Shown: positions 42,580 through 48,164 of the stretch, piece by piece
Layout: each line of letters starts with the position of its first letter
How positions within the stretch are numbered: position 1 is the first letter of the stretch
NCBI RefSeq assembly: GCF_023347535.1
Contig: NZ_CP094473.1
Location: 2,604,001 to 2,668,000, forward strand
From: Faecalibacterium sp. HTF-F
GTDB lineage: Bacteria; Bacillota; Clostridia; Oscillospirales; Ruminococcaceae
DNA length: 64,000 nt
Direction of reading: 5' to 3'
Notes under the pieces: generated by a model
The model's input: the letters and a program-made list of their open reading frames with translations, nothing else
Databases searched by the model: none
What the model was told of the DNA's origin: nothing
Program-made: the position numbers and the translations under genes

Positions 42580-42717
42580 ACCCTCTCCGGCTCGCGTTCG
42601 CTCGCCAGCTCCCCCGAAGGGGGAGCTTTTACAAGAAGGATCACTTTTGTGCACATCCCGAAGAGCTCCCCCCTTTGAAGGAGCTGGCAAAACCGTCAGG
42701 TTTTGACTGAGAGGCTT
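42580..42717. repeat. Symmetrical repeat element, copy 2
   Basis: ACCCTCTC ... TGACTGAGAGGCTT, 138 bp. Variable hairpins GGC...GCC (left) and AAAACC-GTCA-GGTTTT (right); CAGCTCCCCCGAAGGGGGAGCTTTT terminator. Its right end overlaps the stop codon of the DUF1015 gene. Confidence 0.85.
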
Positions 42718-44008
42718 ATTCCGTAATTTTCCGGCACTCCACGTAGTACCGCTTTTCTTCGGCGTGGCCCATGCTGAAGGTCTTGCGGGGCAGCACGCCG
42801 CCCATCACAACGCCCTTGAACAGGTCGCTCTTGGCAAACGGCGGCATCAGAAAGGCCACAGCGCCCTTTTTGCACAGGGCGCGGACGGCAGGCTCATCGT
42901 GGACGTAATCCACCCGTGCCTCCGTGTGGCGTTCCATATAGTCCGCAATAAAATCGTCGATGGTGCCCACGGTCAGCGGCTCGGTGGGGTTCTCGAAGCT
43001 GAGCACGTTGGACATGTGCGGCCCTGCCAGCGTGAAGGGCTGCTGCTTGCCGCCGCCGAAGCAGCAGCCGACCATATTGGAGTCGCTCCACGTGATCAGG
43101 CTCAGCAGCACCGTGGCGCAGTCCACATTGAACAGCACCCGGTGGATGGGCTCGATCTCGATGGCGGGCGAGTGCACATTGCACACCTCGGCCAGACACC
43201 AGCGGGCGGGATGCACCGCGGCCTGCTCCGGCGTCAGGGTCTTTTTCAGCTCCTCCCAGCAGGCCTTTGCGGTGGCCAGCGAATGGTTGCCGTCGCCCAC
43301 GGCCAGCGTCAGCGGGTCGCGGCGGGTGGCATCCGGGTACTTTTTGTCAAACTCTTCCTGACTGCCCAGCACGGCCAGTGCATCCTCGATCTGCGCGATG
43401 AGGGCAGGGTCTTCCACGGCCCAGCCCGCAATGTGGCCGCCGTTCAGCATCAATTCGCCCTCGTATACCTTGGGCAGCTCCTGCTTGTGCGCTGCCACCG
43501 GCTCGATGAGGGTGCAGCCCGGGTCATCGGCCAGCATCATGATGTGAGGCGTTTCCAGGCTGGCGCCGGTGCGCACCTTCATGCGAGGTGGGATGCGGCT
43601 TTCCACGGTGCTCTCGCTGGGGCGCACCGTGCATTTCTCGCCCCGGCGGTAGCTGTAGGCTTCCAGATCCACCATGCCCACAAGGCCCTGCCGCACCTTG
43701 CCGCTCTGCTCGGTGCGCTCTACGTAGATAAAGCCGTCCACCGCGCGGGTAAGCACATTCTGTGCGTAATCGTCCATGGCGGCGTGAATCTTTTCAATGC
43801 GGGCGTCCGCATCGCCGTCCTCCAGATAGACCTCCGGCAGGATCAGGTTCAGGGTGCTGGGACTGCCCGCTGCAGCGGCCTCGGCCTTCTGCCAGTAATC
43901 CCGGTCACTGGTGAACTGGTCGCAGGCGATGCAGCCCCACTTTTCCAGCGGGATCTGTGCCGAAGGCAGAAGGATATGGGCCGGTGCAAAGCAGGATTTG
44001 GTATTCAT
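42716..44008 (-). CDS. DUF1015-family protein
   Basis: 430 residues. N-terminal ILLPSAQIPLEKWGCIACDQ and central LTLAVGDGNHSLATAKACWE match DUF1015 proteins, often found near serine or cell-wall genes in anaerobes; the biochemical role is not established. RBS GGGAGGAA. Stop codon abuts repeat element copy 2. Last gene of the rpe-to-DUF1015 run. Confidence 0.82.
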   Translation of the reverse strand: MNTKSCFAPAHILLPSAQIPLEKWGCIACDQFTSDRDYWQKAEAAAAGSPSTLNLILPEVYLEDGDADARIEKIHAAMDDYAQNVLTRAVDGFIYVERTEQSGKVRQGLVGMVDLEAYSYRRGEKCTVRPSESTVESRIPPRMKVRTGASLETPHIMMLADDPGCTLIEPVAAHKQELPKVYEGELMLNGGHIAGWAVEDPALIAQIEDALAVLGSQEEFDKKYPDATRRDPLTLAVGDGNHSLATAKACWEELKKTLTPEQAAVHPARWCLAEVCNVHSPAIEIEPIHRVLFNVDCATVLLSLITWSDSNMVGCCFGGGKQQPFTLAGPHMSNVLSFENPTEPLTVGTIDDFIADYMERHTEARVDYVHDEPAVRALCKKGAVAFLMPPFAKSDLFKGVVMGGVLPRKTFSMGHAEEKRYYVECRKITE

Positions 44009-44041: not shown

Positions 44042-45121
44042 TTACTGGAAGATGTCGGCGCTGTGCAGCACCAGATGCTGCACGCCCTGTCCGGCGGCAG
44101 ACTGCTCCAGTGCGGTGCGGCTGTCGGCGTCCACCGCCTTGTCTGCCGTCACCAGCAGGTTGTCCATGCCCAGCGTCACAGCAGGCACATCCAGCGACAC
44201 GCTGTTGGTATTGCACTGATCCAGCGTGTAGCTGAACCACAGGGTCATGCTGCCCGCAAAGCGGCTCTGCAGGGCGGCGATATCCGCCTTGAGCTGATCC
44301 GCGCGGGAAACGCCGCTGGTCTCGCCGTAGTCCTGTTTGCGGCTGAGCTTCGGGAACTGGACATTGGTCAGGACCACCTGCTCAAAGCCCATGCCCTGCA
44401 CCTCGGCCACAAGGTCGCCTACATATTCCACTGCCGCAGCGGAGTAGGGGTTCAGCCATGCATTGCCGTCCTTCTGGGCGTCCAGCCACAGGCCGTCGCC
44501 GTAGTGGATAGCCATGCTGCGGTCGGTGCGGGAGGAGATGGGGTCCTTGAAGGCTGCAAGCTGGGCCACAGGGATCACGCCCTCTTCCCGGAAGATAGCC
44601 GCGATGCGGGCCGGGTCCACGGTGGTACCGGCAATGCTCTGGGCGGCAGCCGGCACCTGCGAAGCGTAGCAGATGCTGCCATCCGGTGTTTTCAGGGTCA
44701 CAAGGCCGTAGTCTGCCCCCTGTGCCTTGAGCTGCTGTGCCGCCGCACGGATGGATGCGTCATCGGCAAGGGCACTTACGTCCACCGCCGCCCAGCTGCC
44801 GCCGGTGACGGCCCTGCCGTCCAGCCCCTTGGGCTGTTCCGGCTCCGGCTGGGACGAGGCCGCTTCCTCTGCCGCCGCAGATGCAGCCGCTTCGGAGGAA
44901 GCCGCTGCGCGGGATGCAGATTCCGCTTCCAGATCCCGGTTCTTCACCACGGTGTACCATGTGTGCGTGGCCCAGTCCAGCACATGGGGTGCCGCCAGCC
45001 ATGCCGCGCCCAGCACCACCAGCACCAGCACCAGGATGCCAACGCCGCGCTTGATGCGGGCGCCCCGGCTGTAGAAGCTGCGGTGGTAGCGCTTGACCTT
45101 CTGCCGTTTATACTTTGCCAT
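44042..45121 (-). CDS. DUF4015/GHL13-like putative glycoside hydrolase, membrane-anchored
   Basis: 359 residues from ATG 45121 (GGGAGGAGGA upstream). Basic cytoplasmic N-terminus, one membrane segment (GVGILVLVLVVLGAAWL), Ala/Ser/Glu-rich linker, then a TIM-barrel-like domain (ADYGLVTLKTPDGSICYASQ, NAWLNPYSAAAVEYVGDLV, FEQVVLTNVQFP) resembling DUF4015. Substrate unknown. 24 bp below the rnfA-like gene. Confidence 0.72.
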   Translation of the reverse strand: MAKYKRQKVKRYHRSFYSRGARIKRGVGILVLVLVVLGAAWLAAPHVLDWATHTWYTVVKNRDLEAESASRAAASSEAAASAAAEEAASSQPEPEQPKGLDGRAVTGGSWAAVDVSALADDASIRAAAQQLKAQGADYGLVTLKTPDGSICYASQVPAAAQSIAGTTVDPARIAAIFREEGVIPVAQLAAFKDPISSRTDRSMAIHYGDGLWLDAQKDGNAWLNPYSAAAVEYVGDLVAEVQGMGFEQVVLTNVQFPKLSRKQDYGETSGVSRADQLKADIAALQSRFAGSMTLWFSYTLDQCNTNSVSLDVPAVTLGMDNLLVTADKAVDADSRTALEQSAAGQGVQHLVLHSADIFQ

Positions 45122-45145: not shown

Positions 45146-45757
45146 TCACAGGATCACAGAATGTCCGGTAAAACCATAGATCGCCAGTGCCAGCACACCG
45201 ATGTACACCAGCGTGATGGGCAGGCCGCGGAAGGCTTCCGGGATGGCCTTGCTGCGCAGGCGGTGGCGGGCTTCCGTTACCAGCAGCACCGCCAGCACAT
45301 AGCCAAGGCCGCTGCCCAGACCAAACCCGAGGGACTGGCCCAGCGTAAAGCTCTGGGTGCGCTCCACCAGCACGGTGCCCAGCACACAGCTGTTCAGGCC
45401 CGCCAGCGGCACGATGCGCAGCAGTGCACTGCGGTGCGGCAGGCCCTTTGCCAGCCACAGCACCGCGTGTTCCAGCAGGCACACCACGGCGATGCTGGCA
45501 ATATAGACCAGCGGGCGCAGCTGGGCACGGTTTGCCAGCGGCGCGATCCGGCTGCCGGCATACCATGCAAAGGGCGTTACCAAAATCTGGGTGATGCACA
45601 GCTGCATGCCGAACAGCCAGCTGCTGATGCGGTCATCGCCCACCAGCTGCACCAGACGGGACACGCCCAGCGCACGGGTAAAGACGGCGTTCTGTGCGAA
45701 CACCGCCAGCAGTGCATAGTTGAAGAACACTGCACTGGTCGTAACAACATCTTTCAT
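45146..45757 (-). CDS. RnfA-like membrane protein lacking canonical Fe-S cysteines
   Basis: 203 residues, six membrane segments, Rnf-Nqr family. The C-terminal FRGLPITLVYIGVLALAIYG aligns well with RnfA/RsxA ([20 protein letters not shown]). In RnfA the motif LGLCPF holds a cluster Cys; here it is LGVSRL (Ser33). The second motif TTNCAVLG is GLNSCVLG here (Ser123, with Cys124 displaced by one). ATG overlaps the rnfE-like stop by 4 bp. Confidence 0.83.
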   Translation of the reverse strand: MKDVVTTSAVFFNYALLAVFAQNAVFTRALGVSRLVQLVGDDRISSWLFGMQLCITQILVTPFAWYAGSRIAPLANRAQLRPLVYIASIAVVCLLEHAVLWLAKGLPHRSALLRIVPLAGLNSCVLGTVLVERTQSFTLGQSLGFGLGSGLGYVLAVLLVTEARHRLRSKAIPEAFRGLPITLVYIGVLALAIYGFTGHSVIL

Positions 45758-46476
45758 CCTTCGCGGTCCGCCTCCTTCTGGGAATGCACATCCACAAGGT
45801 TGCCCGCCTCTTTGGTGAGATATGCCCTGCGCCTTGCGGCCAGCGCACGCCATACCGCGCAAAGCACGCCCAGCACGATAAAGCCGCCCGCCGGCATCCC
45901 GGCCATGGGCAGCACCGGGCGGCTGACTGCCACGCCGAACACAGTGCCTGCGGCCAGCCATTCACGGATGCAGCCCAGCAGCACCAGCAGCAAAGCATAG
46001 CCCACGGTGATGCGCAGGCCCTTGGAAACGGCCTTGCGCACCGTCTCCTGTACGCGGCCGAAACGGTAGGTCAGCAGCGGCTCCACCGTGAGCATGGGCA
46101 GATAGATGCCAAGGCTCAGCAGGCCGGTGCCGAACAGCATGTTCAGGATGGGGTACACCGCCAGATACACCACAGCAGTGCTGAAGCCGTACACCAGTGC
46201 ACGGGGCAGCAGCTTTTTCTGCAGCGTTTCCGGGGCAGGGTCCTCGTCGTACAGGGGCACAAGGCGGCTCAGCAGGCAGGCCAGCACGCGGGAGGGCACC
46301 AGCAGCAGCGCCACCGCCGCCGCCAGCATCACCGCATTCTGGCCGCTGGTGGCAAGCACCACCAGCGGGGCCAGACCCATGCCCTGCATGACCACCGGGT
46401 TATTCAGGAACACCCGGTCATGGTGGGCAAATTTGCCGGAGTCTTTTACGATCAGTTCAGCCGTTGCGCGTCTCAT
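45754..46476 (-). CDS. RnfE-like membrane protein lacking canonical Fe-S cysteines
   Basis: 240 residues, Rnf-Nqr family. FLNNPVVMQGMGLAPLVVLA aligns to the RnfE/RsxE block NNSALVQLLGLCPLLAVT, with Ala36 for Cys. The second motif PLIVTNCIVVGR is replaced by PMLTVEPLLTYR (Glu132, Pro133). LGCIREWLAAGTVF and MPAGGFIVLG match conserved RnfE segments. Overlaps both neighbours by 4 bp (ATGA). Confidence 0.8.
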   Translation of the reverse strand: MRRATAELIVKDSGKFAHHDRVFLNNPVVMQGMGLAPLVVLATSGQNAVMLAAAVALLLVPSRVLACLLSRLVPLYDEDPAPETLQKKLLPRALVYGFSTAVVYLAVYPILNMLFGTGLLSLGIYLPMLTVEPLLTYRFGRVQETVRKAVSKGLRITVGYALLLVLLGCIREWLAAGTVFGVAVSRPVLPMAGMPAGGFIVLGVLCAVWRALAARRRAYLTKEAGNLVDVHSQKEADREG

Positions 46477-47492
46477 TGTGCTGCCCCCTTTCCGGCATCT
46501 GCCTGCAGATGGGTCAGGTGATACAGCTTTGCCTCGGTGCGGTCGATCCATGCCGACACACTGTTGACCACCAGCAGCGCAAAGCATACACCGGTCTCAT
46601 ACACGCCGTAGTAGCGGAAGCCCATGCTCACAACACCCACCAGCACACCGTACAGGATGCGGCCCATGCGGTGATGCACACAGGTATAGGGTTCGTTGAG
46701 CAGGAACACTGCACTGAACAGGATCGCGCCGGTGAGCAGCTCGTCCCGCACGCACCGCAGGCGGGGCAGCACATTTGCCAGCACGGCACTGTCGGCCAGA
46801 CCCGCCTGCCGCGGGAAGAGGAAGGCGATCAGCGCACAGGTGAGCAGAAAGCTGACCGAGGCAGACATGTGGGCGTCCTTCTGGGTCCACAGAAACAGGC
46901 CGCAGGCCAGGATCACCAGCGCCGCGCCGGTGCCCATGGGGGCGGCATACTCGCCCAGACTCAGCACCAGCGAACGGATGTTCAGCATACCGCCGCTGCG
47001 CAGGGTGTCCTCAATGGTGCTGGACACCGGCACCATGGAAGCGTCCCACAGGGGGATGCTGGTGTAGGGCTGGGGGTAGCGGAACACCTGCTCCGGCCAT
47101 GACACCGCCGCCACCACATAGCCCACAGCGGCGGGGTTGAAGGGGTAGCTGCCGTAGCCGCCGAAGATCTCCTTGCCGATGAGCACACCGGCAAGCACCG
47201 CGGCGATCAGAACATAGATATCCACCGTTACCGGCATCAGCAGGGCAATGACGAGTGCAAAGCTCTCGTTGGAAAAGTCACCGGCCTGATACACGCGGCG
47301 GCGCAGCAGCGAAACAAGACGGTCGCACAGATTTCCGGTGAGCACCGCGATGCCGCACAGCAGCAGAGGACGCACACCGTACAGGAAGCAGGCCATCCAC
47401 AGCACCGGCACCGCCATAAAGCAGATATGCTTATAGTAGCGGCCGGTCTTCTGGAGCTGCGCTTCCTGTTCCCGGATCAAAGATTCATCCAT
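46473..47492 (-). CDS. RnfD-like membrane protein lacking the FMN-attachment motif
   Basis: 339 residues from ATG 47492 (AAAGGA upstream). NQR2/RnfB/RnfD-type layout with ~9 membrane segments, including FSNESFALVIALLMPVTVDI and GGYGSYPFNPAAVGYVV. RnfD carries FMN on Thr in (S/T)GAT; the corresponding stretch here (EDTLRSGGMLNIRS, ~161-174) has no SGAT. LSLGEYAAPMGTGAALVIL matches the segment after it. rnfC, rnfG and rnfB are not adjacent. Confidence 0.8.
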   Translation of the reverse strand: MDESLIREQEAQLQKTGRYYKHICFMAVPVLWMACFLYGVRPLLLCGIAVLTGNLCDRLVSLLRRRVYQAGDFSNESFALVIALLMPVTVDIYVLIAAVLAGVLIGKEIFGGYGSYPFNPAAVGYVVAAVSWPEQVFRYPQPYTSIPLWDASMVPVSSTIEDTLRSGGMLNIRSLVLSLGEYAAPMGTGAALVILACGLFLWTQKDAHMSASVSFLLTCALIAFLFPRQAGLADSAVLANVLPRLRCVRDELLTGAILFSAVFLLNEPYTCVHHRMGRILYGVLVGVVSMGFRYYGVYETGVCFALLVVNSVSAWIDRTEAKLYHLTHLQADAGKGAAQ

Positions 47493-47513: not shown

Positions 47514-48164
47514 TCAAAGGCTGGCGAGGTGCTGCACCGCTGCAGCAGGGTCTGCTGCACCGAACACCGCACTGCCCGCCACCAGAATATCGGCACCCGC
47601 TTCCACGCACTGGGGCGCGGTGGTGCTGTCCACACCGCCATCCACTTCCAGCAGGTAGTGTGCGCCGCGTGCCGCGCGCTCCGCCTTGAGCCAGCGCAGC
47701 TTGTCCAGCGCCGAGGGCATGAACTTCTGCCCGCCGAAGCCGGGCTCCACGCTCATCACCAGCACAAGGTCCAGCTGGTCAAGATAGGGTGCCAGCGCCT
47801 GCGGGTCGGTGCCGGGCTTGATGGTCAGGCCCACCTTGCAGCCCAGCGCCCTGACCGCATCGATGGTGGCCTGAATATCGTCCTCACACTCAAGGTGGAA
47901 GTTGTACAGGGTGGCACCGGCCTTGATGAAGGCTTCCGCATACTGCAGCGGGTGGCTGATCATCAGGTGCACATCATAAAAGGCATCCGGCAGGTTTTTG
48001 TGCAGGCTCTTGAGCACCGGCACGCCAAAGCTGATGTTGGGCACAAAGTGGCCGTCCATCACATCATAATGCAGCATCTGTGCACCGGCGTCCAGCACCA
48101 TGCGGCAGTCTGCACCCAGTTTGCCAAAATCAGCAGAAAGAATCGAAGGACTTACGATCGCCAT
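47514..48164 (-). CDS. rpe: Ribulose-phosphate 3-epimerase
   Basis: 216 residues, TIM barrel with SPSILSADFG, MLHYDVMDGHFVPNISFG, DVHLMI, VLVMSVEPGFGGQKF and LEVDGGV; metal and catalytic His/Asp residues are present. Interconverts ribulose-5-P and xylulose-5-P. RBS is weak. First gene of a run that continues into the Rnf-like trio 21 bp downstream. Confidence 0.96.
   Translation of the reverse strand: MAIVSPSILSADFGKLGADCRMVLDAGAQMLHYDVMDGHFVPNISFGVPVLKSLHKNLPDAFYDVHLMISHPLQYAEAFIKAGATLYNFHLECEDDIQATIDAVRALGCKVGLTIKPGTDPQALAPYLDQLDLVLVMSVEPGFGGQKFMPSALDKLRWLKAERAARGAHYLLEVDGGVDSTTAPQCVEAGADILVAGSAVFGAADPAAAVQHLASL

Follow-up and report, generated by a model that had tools for sequence, protein, structure and literature searches.

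A second Rnf membrane core without cofactor sites in Faecalibacterium and related gut bacteria, probably working without electron transfer

In Faecalibacterium and other gut bacteria a second Rnf membrane core is present, which probably serves to move something across the membrane without transferring electrons. The case comes from one Faecalibacterium genome (2.78 Mb, one contig) and, within it, from a stretch of 64,000 nucleotides, here called the window, in which three minus-strand genes (47492..45146) encode homologues of RnfD, RnfE and RnfA. They are referred to here as D, E and A and, together with their counterparts in relatives, as the module. It is near certain that this trio is a cofactor-stripped paralogue of Rnf, and a non-redox role is likely for the module in the window's clade. 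That D-E-A form the core of a redox-independent, probably cation-coupled transporter is a more tentative proposal, to which we give nearly an even chance. An initial annotation of the window had described three coupled genes homologous to RnfD, RnfE and RnfA, with rnfC, rnfG and rnfB missing on both sides, the four conserved cysteines of RnfA and RnfE replaced, the RnfD (S/T)GAT motif missing and the set apparently maintained. Pfam matches, coordinates and ATGA overlaps agree with the first of these claims, the neighbours (rpe, DUF4015 and DUF1015) with the second, and the others are borne out below. The Pfam scores lie well over the curated cut-offs (PF02508, 86.1 and 81.6 bits versus 23.8; PF03116, 177.3 versus 27.7), and none of D, E and A in the window reaches the NCBIfam cut-off for any Rnf or Nqr subunit.

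What has become of the iron–sulphur site? The ligand columns were located by phmmer alignment to solved RnfA and RnfE from Acetobacterium woodii (9eri) and Clostridium tetanomorphum (7zc6). All four cysteines of the intramembrane [2Fe-2S] cluster are replaced in the window, by Ser33 and Ser123 in A and by Ala36 and Pro133 in E. Canonical controls in the same alignment have Cys at both columns in 30/30 RnfA and 29/29 RnfE, the latter count excluding L070, a module row first labelled canonical E. A search with the A protein over 119 genomes of the family and 291 of the class gave the loci from which 60 stretches were fetched; 56 are module loci and four are canonical rnf (L128 and L132-L134, left out of module counts). 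The D-E-A order that the initial annotation proposed to look for in other genomes is found at 56 relatives, with the common order rpe-[C]-D-E-A, in which C is an RnfC-like gene present in some of them. Over 57 rows (these loci plus the window), Cys stands at A33 in 0, at A123 in 30, at E36 in 0 and at E133 in 0. A set of named loci (87 found, 80 kept), which shares genomes with the 57 rows and is not independent of them, gives 0/80, 24/80, 1/78 and 0/78. Across the family three of the ligands are gone in essentially every relative examined (a single exception was seen), while the fourth, A123, is lost in some lineages and kept in others. Since 30 of the 57 A proteins still have it, this ligand was either lost later or is dispensable; by eye, it shows no correlation with the presence of the C gene. 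The former Cys positions mostly hold small or hydroxyl residues. In A. woodii, mutants of the cluster cysteines no longer reduce NAD+ with ferredoxin and do not grow autotrophically (PMC11889175). With the ligands gone, and given this phenotype, the trio in the window should be unable to perform Rnf electron transfer, as far as its sequence tells. The central idea of the initial annotation, a membrane module derived from Rnf that is maintained but cannot perform Rnf electron transfer, has held over all 57 loci and agrees with these mutants.

The flavin site of D has changed as well. Even the loose flavinylation motif [ST][AGST]AT is absent from D in the window, where the canonical RnfD of the same genome has SSAT; the motif occurs somewhere in five other D rows of 56. 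Structural work on C. tetanomorphum names the RnfD residues around flavin mononucleotide (FMN) (PMC9588780). In module D the Arg130 column has become Tyr, Phe, Met, Val and others, the Asn90 column Leu, Met and others, and the Glu185 column Ala, Thr and others. Two further columns are largely kept: Asp248, which in that work flanks riboflavin and perhaps marks a Na+ site, is acidic in 53/56 loci and 72/76 named rows, and Asn124 is Asn or His in 51/56 and 65/76. A separate observation concerns the C-terminus. Several Oscillospiraceae (the D genes L201, L204, L205, L206 and L208, and L096) have a long, charged D tail, for totals of 511-656 aa versus 339 aa in the window, and some of these tails look to the eye like coiled coils. 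A short stretch resembling FSTxTID recurs at the end of the tail in L099, L190, L193 and L213.

Is the trio then a damaged rnf operon or a system in its own right? The initial annotation had asked whether the genome also has a full rnfCDGEAB, and it does: a complete row of rnfC, D, G, E, A and B lies at a separate locus (about C1:360616-365724, L007), and its cysteines and flavin motifs are as expected. PF02508 matches four genes across this genome, two per locus, and PF03116 matches two. It is this complete canonical operon that makes the trio a paralogue. In a tree, module A forms a separate clade (Shimodaira–Hasegawa-like approximate likelihood ratio, SH-aLRT, 99), and the split of the module from canonical A and E is deep; the mislabelled row L070 is still within that tree and is the most likely source of an extra change. 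The idea that the trio is an ordinary rnf operon cut down by a local deletion was rejected, given the module's own clades and the canonical operon elsewhere. Four family genomes (83-94% complete) have only the two module PF02508 genes and no canonical RnfA/E match; in the fourth of them, G102, module A is without both Cys. Two comparison genomes have canonical PF02508 genes besides the module ones, and in one of these, G101, the search recovered 3/4 expected genes (module A was missed), with the canonical genes at 189-225 bits. The module-only genomes suggest, with the caveat that the assemblies are incomplete, that the module does not depend on canonical RnfA/E. Its genes are also maintained. 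D, E and A are full length in 17/17 Faecalibacterium loci (16 fetched plus the window), and the median ratio of nonsynonymous to synonymous substitution rates (dN/dS) is 0.34 for D, 0.35 for E and 0.33 for A, compared with 0.21 for rpe and 0.44 for DUF4015 (pairs with dS 0.05-1.5; D 123, E 130 and A 121 of 136 each). The three genes are under purifying selection.

The other Rnf subunits have fared differently from one another. A homologue of RnfC stands upstream of D at 24/57 loci, a count made after removal of two spurious matches (L100 and L123). Both CxxCxxCxxxC [4Fe-4S] motifs are present in 24/24 of these C-like proteins, and the GGAGFP FMN loop in 0/24, when two of three canonical controls have GGAGFP and the third GGAAFP. 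At the position of the canonical GLGGAGFP stands mostly D-E-x-D-G; most C-like proteins (e.g. L107:5204-6346) carry a signature of D-E-x-D-G and D-D-E-P-Y in place of the RnfC FMN region. A strong C-like match is found in 36/119 family genomes. In the window's own genome the sole match is the canonical RnfC, and the idea that the C-like gene had been relocated within this genome was rejected on that ground. On a tree of A, E and D, presence of C changes once (SH-aLRT 97). Because canonical rnf and the other family both have C, the economical reading is a single loss that led to the 33 C-less loci; an RnfC-like gene would once have been part of the set and have been lost once on the window's side, with the root of the tree not proven. 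RnfG and RnfB gave no match at the 56 relatives or the 80 named loci in BLAST with one RnfG and one RnfB of the own genome, a search that detected RnfG at 3/4 and RnfB at 2/4 canonical loci, such that a divergent copy could escape it. D and E adjoin, which leaves the usual rnfG position empty. Eight FMN_bind matches in the own genome were considered as the missing RnfG; one lies in the canonical rnf, and two others fall in one 346-aa frame (G000:C1:2313266-2313907, L014/L015). Among the findings that would have spoken against its proposal, the initial annotation had named rnfC, rnfG or rnfB linked in relatives, with the trio as a local deletion. This is half of what is seen: a C-like gene is linked at 24/57 loci, so its absence from the window looks like a later loss, but no G or B was found and the module is old. 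Since the C-like protein lacks the FMN loop and neither G nor B was found, its presence does not restore an Rnf.

How could such a core work without its cofactors? RnfA/E has been described as an hourglass whose half-helices meet at the metal site (PMC9588780), and in one model it works by alternating access, with Na+ bound beside the reduced cluster and gates at A-L22, E-L103, E-L22 and A-L108 (PMC11889175). Of the kink residues, the module keeps A N23, A N122 and E N26 and, mostly, A G31; three of the four gate positions are mainly Leu, Met or Ile. The column of RnfE Asn107, which lies beside Cys108, is Asn in 29/29 canonical RnfE, and Asp or Glu in 23/23 loci of the window's clade (Glu132 in the window) versus 2/34 other module loci. 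Our proposal is that in this ancient Rnf paralogue electron transfer was abandoned while the fold was retained, and that the E-A dimer, or E-A together with the D channel, is now a redox-independent transporter. The carboxylate of Glu132 would replace the reduced cluster in binding and releasing a cation (H+ or Na+), with the difference that a fixed carboxylate could bind it all the time and the reduced cluster only when needed, and in many lineages the transporter would work with the extracytoplasmic DUF4015 protein. In the relatives that have C, the [4Fe-4S] protein may still act on the cytoplasmic side as a sensor or a source of electrons. A history in which a redox ion pump became a carboxylate-coupled transporter by a traceable series of losses, first of RnfB, RnfG, the FMN sites and the [2Fe-2S] ligands and later of the RnfC-like protein, with Asp/Glu arising beside the former cluster, is possible, though we doubt it somewhat more than the transporter itself.

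Several points weigh against this proposal. The acid at E132 is essentially the trait of one clade and needs only three changes on the tree, so it is no independent support, and is a lead rather than a proof; at this column the second C-less clade, of 10 loci, has Asn in nine and Ser in one. A one-for-one tie between the acid and loss of C was tried and rejected, as an independent-pairs test gave three pairs with no difference in C. The column of A. woodii RnfE Glu115 is Gly in the window (Glu in 30/56 and 53/78 module rows) and Leu stands at the gate A-L108 in 18/56 only; with both so poorly kept, the published Na+ route is not simply retained. Window A97 lies in the column of a Glu conserved in canonical RnfA, which we take to be A. 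woodii Glu88; of the named module rows, only 9% have a charged residue there. The structural work on C. tetanomorphum places the Na+ path in RnfD (PMC9588780), and the predicted structure covers D alone. The acid kept at the Asp248 column of D could equally well mean that riboflavin is still bound, and the [4Fe-4S] motifs of every C-like protein mean that a redox role may survive in the C-bearing relatives. Finally, BLAST found no DUF4015 at 12/56 module loci.

Other explanations have to be set beside the transporter. One is a residual or altered redox device. Either D would still bind riboflavin and relay electrons, taken from a donor in the cytoplasm, to an acceptor that is external or lipid-soluble, or another metal would be bound by E-A via Ser33, Ser123/Cys124 and Glu132. 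The Asp248 and Asn124 columns of D and the two cluster motifs of the C-like proteins speak for such a device, whose donor would be the C-like protein in relatives and another protein in the window. Against it, the window's clade has no C at the locus and the window's genome only the canonical RnfC, the FMN residues of D are replaced, no rnfG or rnfB was found at the loci, and Ala and Pro at E36 and E133 offer no metal-binding side chain; a redox device is for us an unlikely reading. Much less credible still is that D, E and A of the module are spare subunits that exchange into the canonical rnfCDGEAB complex. Both loci do share one genome, and rnfDEA and rnfCDGEAB have been listed as two putative rnf operons (PMC10781979); the missing ligands should however inactivate the complex, judging by the A. 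woodii Cys mutants, the four module-only genomes have no other PF02508 match, and the split from canonical A and E is deep. The absence of C on the window's side, the failure to find G and B and the vanished cofactor sites could also be the marks of a decaying remnant of an rnf operon. This is already contradicted by the intact genes, by the dN/dS medians of 0.33-0.35 and by the same gene order in 56 relatives, and can practically be set aside.

The remaining rival concerns DUF4015, to which the initial annotation had suggested that the trio might be coupled. By position the link is frequent: DUF4015 is present at 44/56 module loci and lies directly after the A-type match in at least 77/90 family genomes with PF13200. 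It is not strict. Among the matches listed, 13/90 family genomes have DUF4015 without an adjacent A-type match (G003, G005, G016, G026, G027, G028, G036, G040, G045, G055, G056, G077 and G096), of which some may be contig breaks or unlisted matches and others a lone DUF4015 gene. The module loci without it are L080, L082, L089, L091, L100, L103, L108, L124, L127, L129, L130 and L131, and at least six of their genomes (G014, G017, G031, G041, G043 and G054) have no PF13200 match anywhere. Support for the coupling is therefore mixed. Could the module be a scaffold, a membrane platform for assembly of DUF4015 (and of the C-like protein in relatives) that transports nothing? The adjacency fits, as does the length of the D tail, which varies greatly among lineages, up to 656 aa (L205). 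Yet the kink residues (A N23, G31 and N122; E N26) and the mostly hydrophobic gates are conserved, for which a simple platform would have no use, and one built for DUF4015 sits badly with the 13/90 genomes in which DUF4015 has no adjacent A-type match, with the 12/56 loci lacking it and with the six genomes that do without it. We regard a scaffold as unlikely, about on a par with the redox device.

How widespread is the module? Named carriers include Faecalibacterium, Gemmiger, Ruthenibacterium, Fournierella, Anaerofilum, Pygmaiobacter, Bittarella and Neobittarella. A module-D profile run over 391 genomes of the class gave nine matches of at least 296 bits, followed by one at 258 bits; four of the nine are in the window's own family and five in a second family of that order. 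A C-like profile over 398 genomes of the phylum gave one match at 392 bits, the next being at 219. We read the lower-scoring D- and C-profile groups as canonical Rnf. The A proteins of the 25 class loci inspected (L048-L074 minus L067 and L070) have both Cys. The module is old and, in these samples, confined to two families of one order, mostly gut Clostridia; the samples are an even draw of genomes, in which rare lineages could be missed. The closest named A-protein record found is from Faecalibacterium sp. I4-3-84 (98% identity). A cluster of A homologues at the same identity to A of the window, P0004, has 2317 member sequences, by which the module looks common in public data.

The locus itself is compact (Table 1). 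Genes run in the order rpe, D, E, A, DUF4015 and DUF1015 on the minus strand, with 4-base ATGA overlaps at D/E and E/A, 21 bases between rpe and D and 24 between A and DUF4015, and purine-rich stretches ahead of the start codons. The overlaps, short gaps and purine-rich stretches make it likely that the whole row is one operon. At many relatives (L094, L101, L102, L106, L112, L114 and others; not the window) the gap of about 600-760 bases from rpe to C or D holds a gene on the opposite strand, which we read tentatively as a MecA-type adaptor; its strand argues against its being part of the module.

Table 1. Genes and key residues of the module locus, in coordinates of the window
Feature	Positions	Strand	Remarks
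D, RnfD-like membrane protein	46473..47492	-	339 aa; without flavin-attachment motif; PF03116 E=5.9e-52
E, RnfE-like membrane protein	45754..46476	-	240 aa; both cluster Cys replaced; PF02508 E=3.7e-24; aligned to 7zc6_E/9eri_E
A, RnfA-like membrane protein	45146..45757	-	203 aa; both cluster Cys replaced; PF02508 E=9.2e-23; aligned to 9eri_A/7zc6_A
A Ser33	45659..45661	-	column of RnfA Cys25 (A. woodii numbering); alignment
A Ser123	45389..45391	-	column of RnfA Cys113 (A. woodii numbering); Cys124 next to it; alignment
E Ala36	46369..46371	-	column of RnfE Cys25 (A. woodii numbering); alignment
E Pro133	46078..46080	-	column of RnfE Cys108 (A. woodii numbering); alignment
E Glu132	46081..46083	-	column of RnfE Asn107 (beside Cys108); acidic in 23/23 loci of the window's clade
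rpe, ribulose-phosphate 3-epimerase	47514..48164	-	upstream neighbour, kept in relatives; TIGR01163 E=1.3e-74
DUF4015 protein	44042..45121	-	directly downstream of A; one strong N-terminal hydrophobic segment (hydropathy); PF13200 E=2.1e-14
DUF1015 protein	42716..44008	-	gene after DUF4015; in part of the relatives only; PF06245 E=3e-57

Where does the module stand among known systems? With the Rnf complex (RnfABCDGE, ferredoxin:NAD+ oxidoreductase; 9eri, 7zc6) it shares homologues of RnfD, RnfE and RnfA in one operon; it differs in the [2Fe-2S] ligand set and the RnfD flavin motif, both missing, in RnfB and RnfG, not found, and in the C-like protein, which lacks the FMN loop or is absent. NqrB, NqrD and NqrE of the Na+-NQR (NqrABCDEF) are homologues of D, E and A, but the NQR keeps the [2Fe-2S] of NqrD/E and the flavins of NqrB/C, whereas the module keeps neither ligand set; no NqrF-type gene is among the annotated neighbours of the trio, to which the check for NqrF was limited. 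For the loss of cofactors in this subunit there is an earlier case in NqrA, a relative of RnfC that lost its own (PMC11889175). The NQR/RNF-like flavinylated systems, mainly from Actinobacteria and the candidate phyla radiation, are also partial and built on an NqrB/RnfD homologue (PMC8238504); those are flavinylation clusters with a fused NAD-binding domain, and the module has neither a flavin motif nor such a domain. To AmtB/Rh ammonium and UT urea transporters the match is at most one in fold, at 7-12% identity. No description of such cofactor loss was found in the literature searched, with its little subscription coverage. A metabolic scheme of Faecalibacterium counts rnfDEA of F. duncaniae A2-165 as an energy-conserving Rnf operon (PMC10781979), and from its matching composition this rnfDEA is taken to be the locus described here. 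On the sequence evidence, and contrary to that scheme, rnfDEA should not count as an electron-transferring Rnf. The Joint Genome Institute (JGI) name for a homologue, P0115, is likewise RnfA; with such counts and names in use, Rnf copy numbers in these gut bacteria may be inflated.

The route of Na+ in Rnf and Nqr, through the E-A dimer or the D channel, is disputed in print. A D-E-A core without cofactor sites that occurs in nature and is held by selection allows the path for an ion or solute to be examined separately from electron transfer, and the graded relatives, with or without C and with Asn or Asp/Glu by the former cluster, offer ready points of comparison. If the module is indeed a carboxylate-coupled transporter, the Rnf/Nqr family would have in it a first member without a redox function, and one at home in abundant human gut bacteria.

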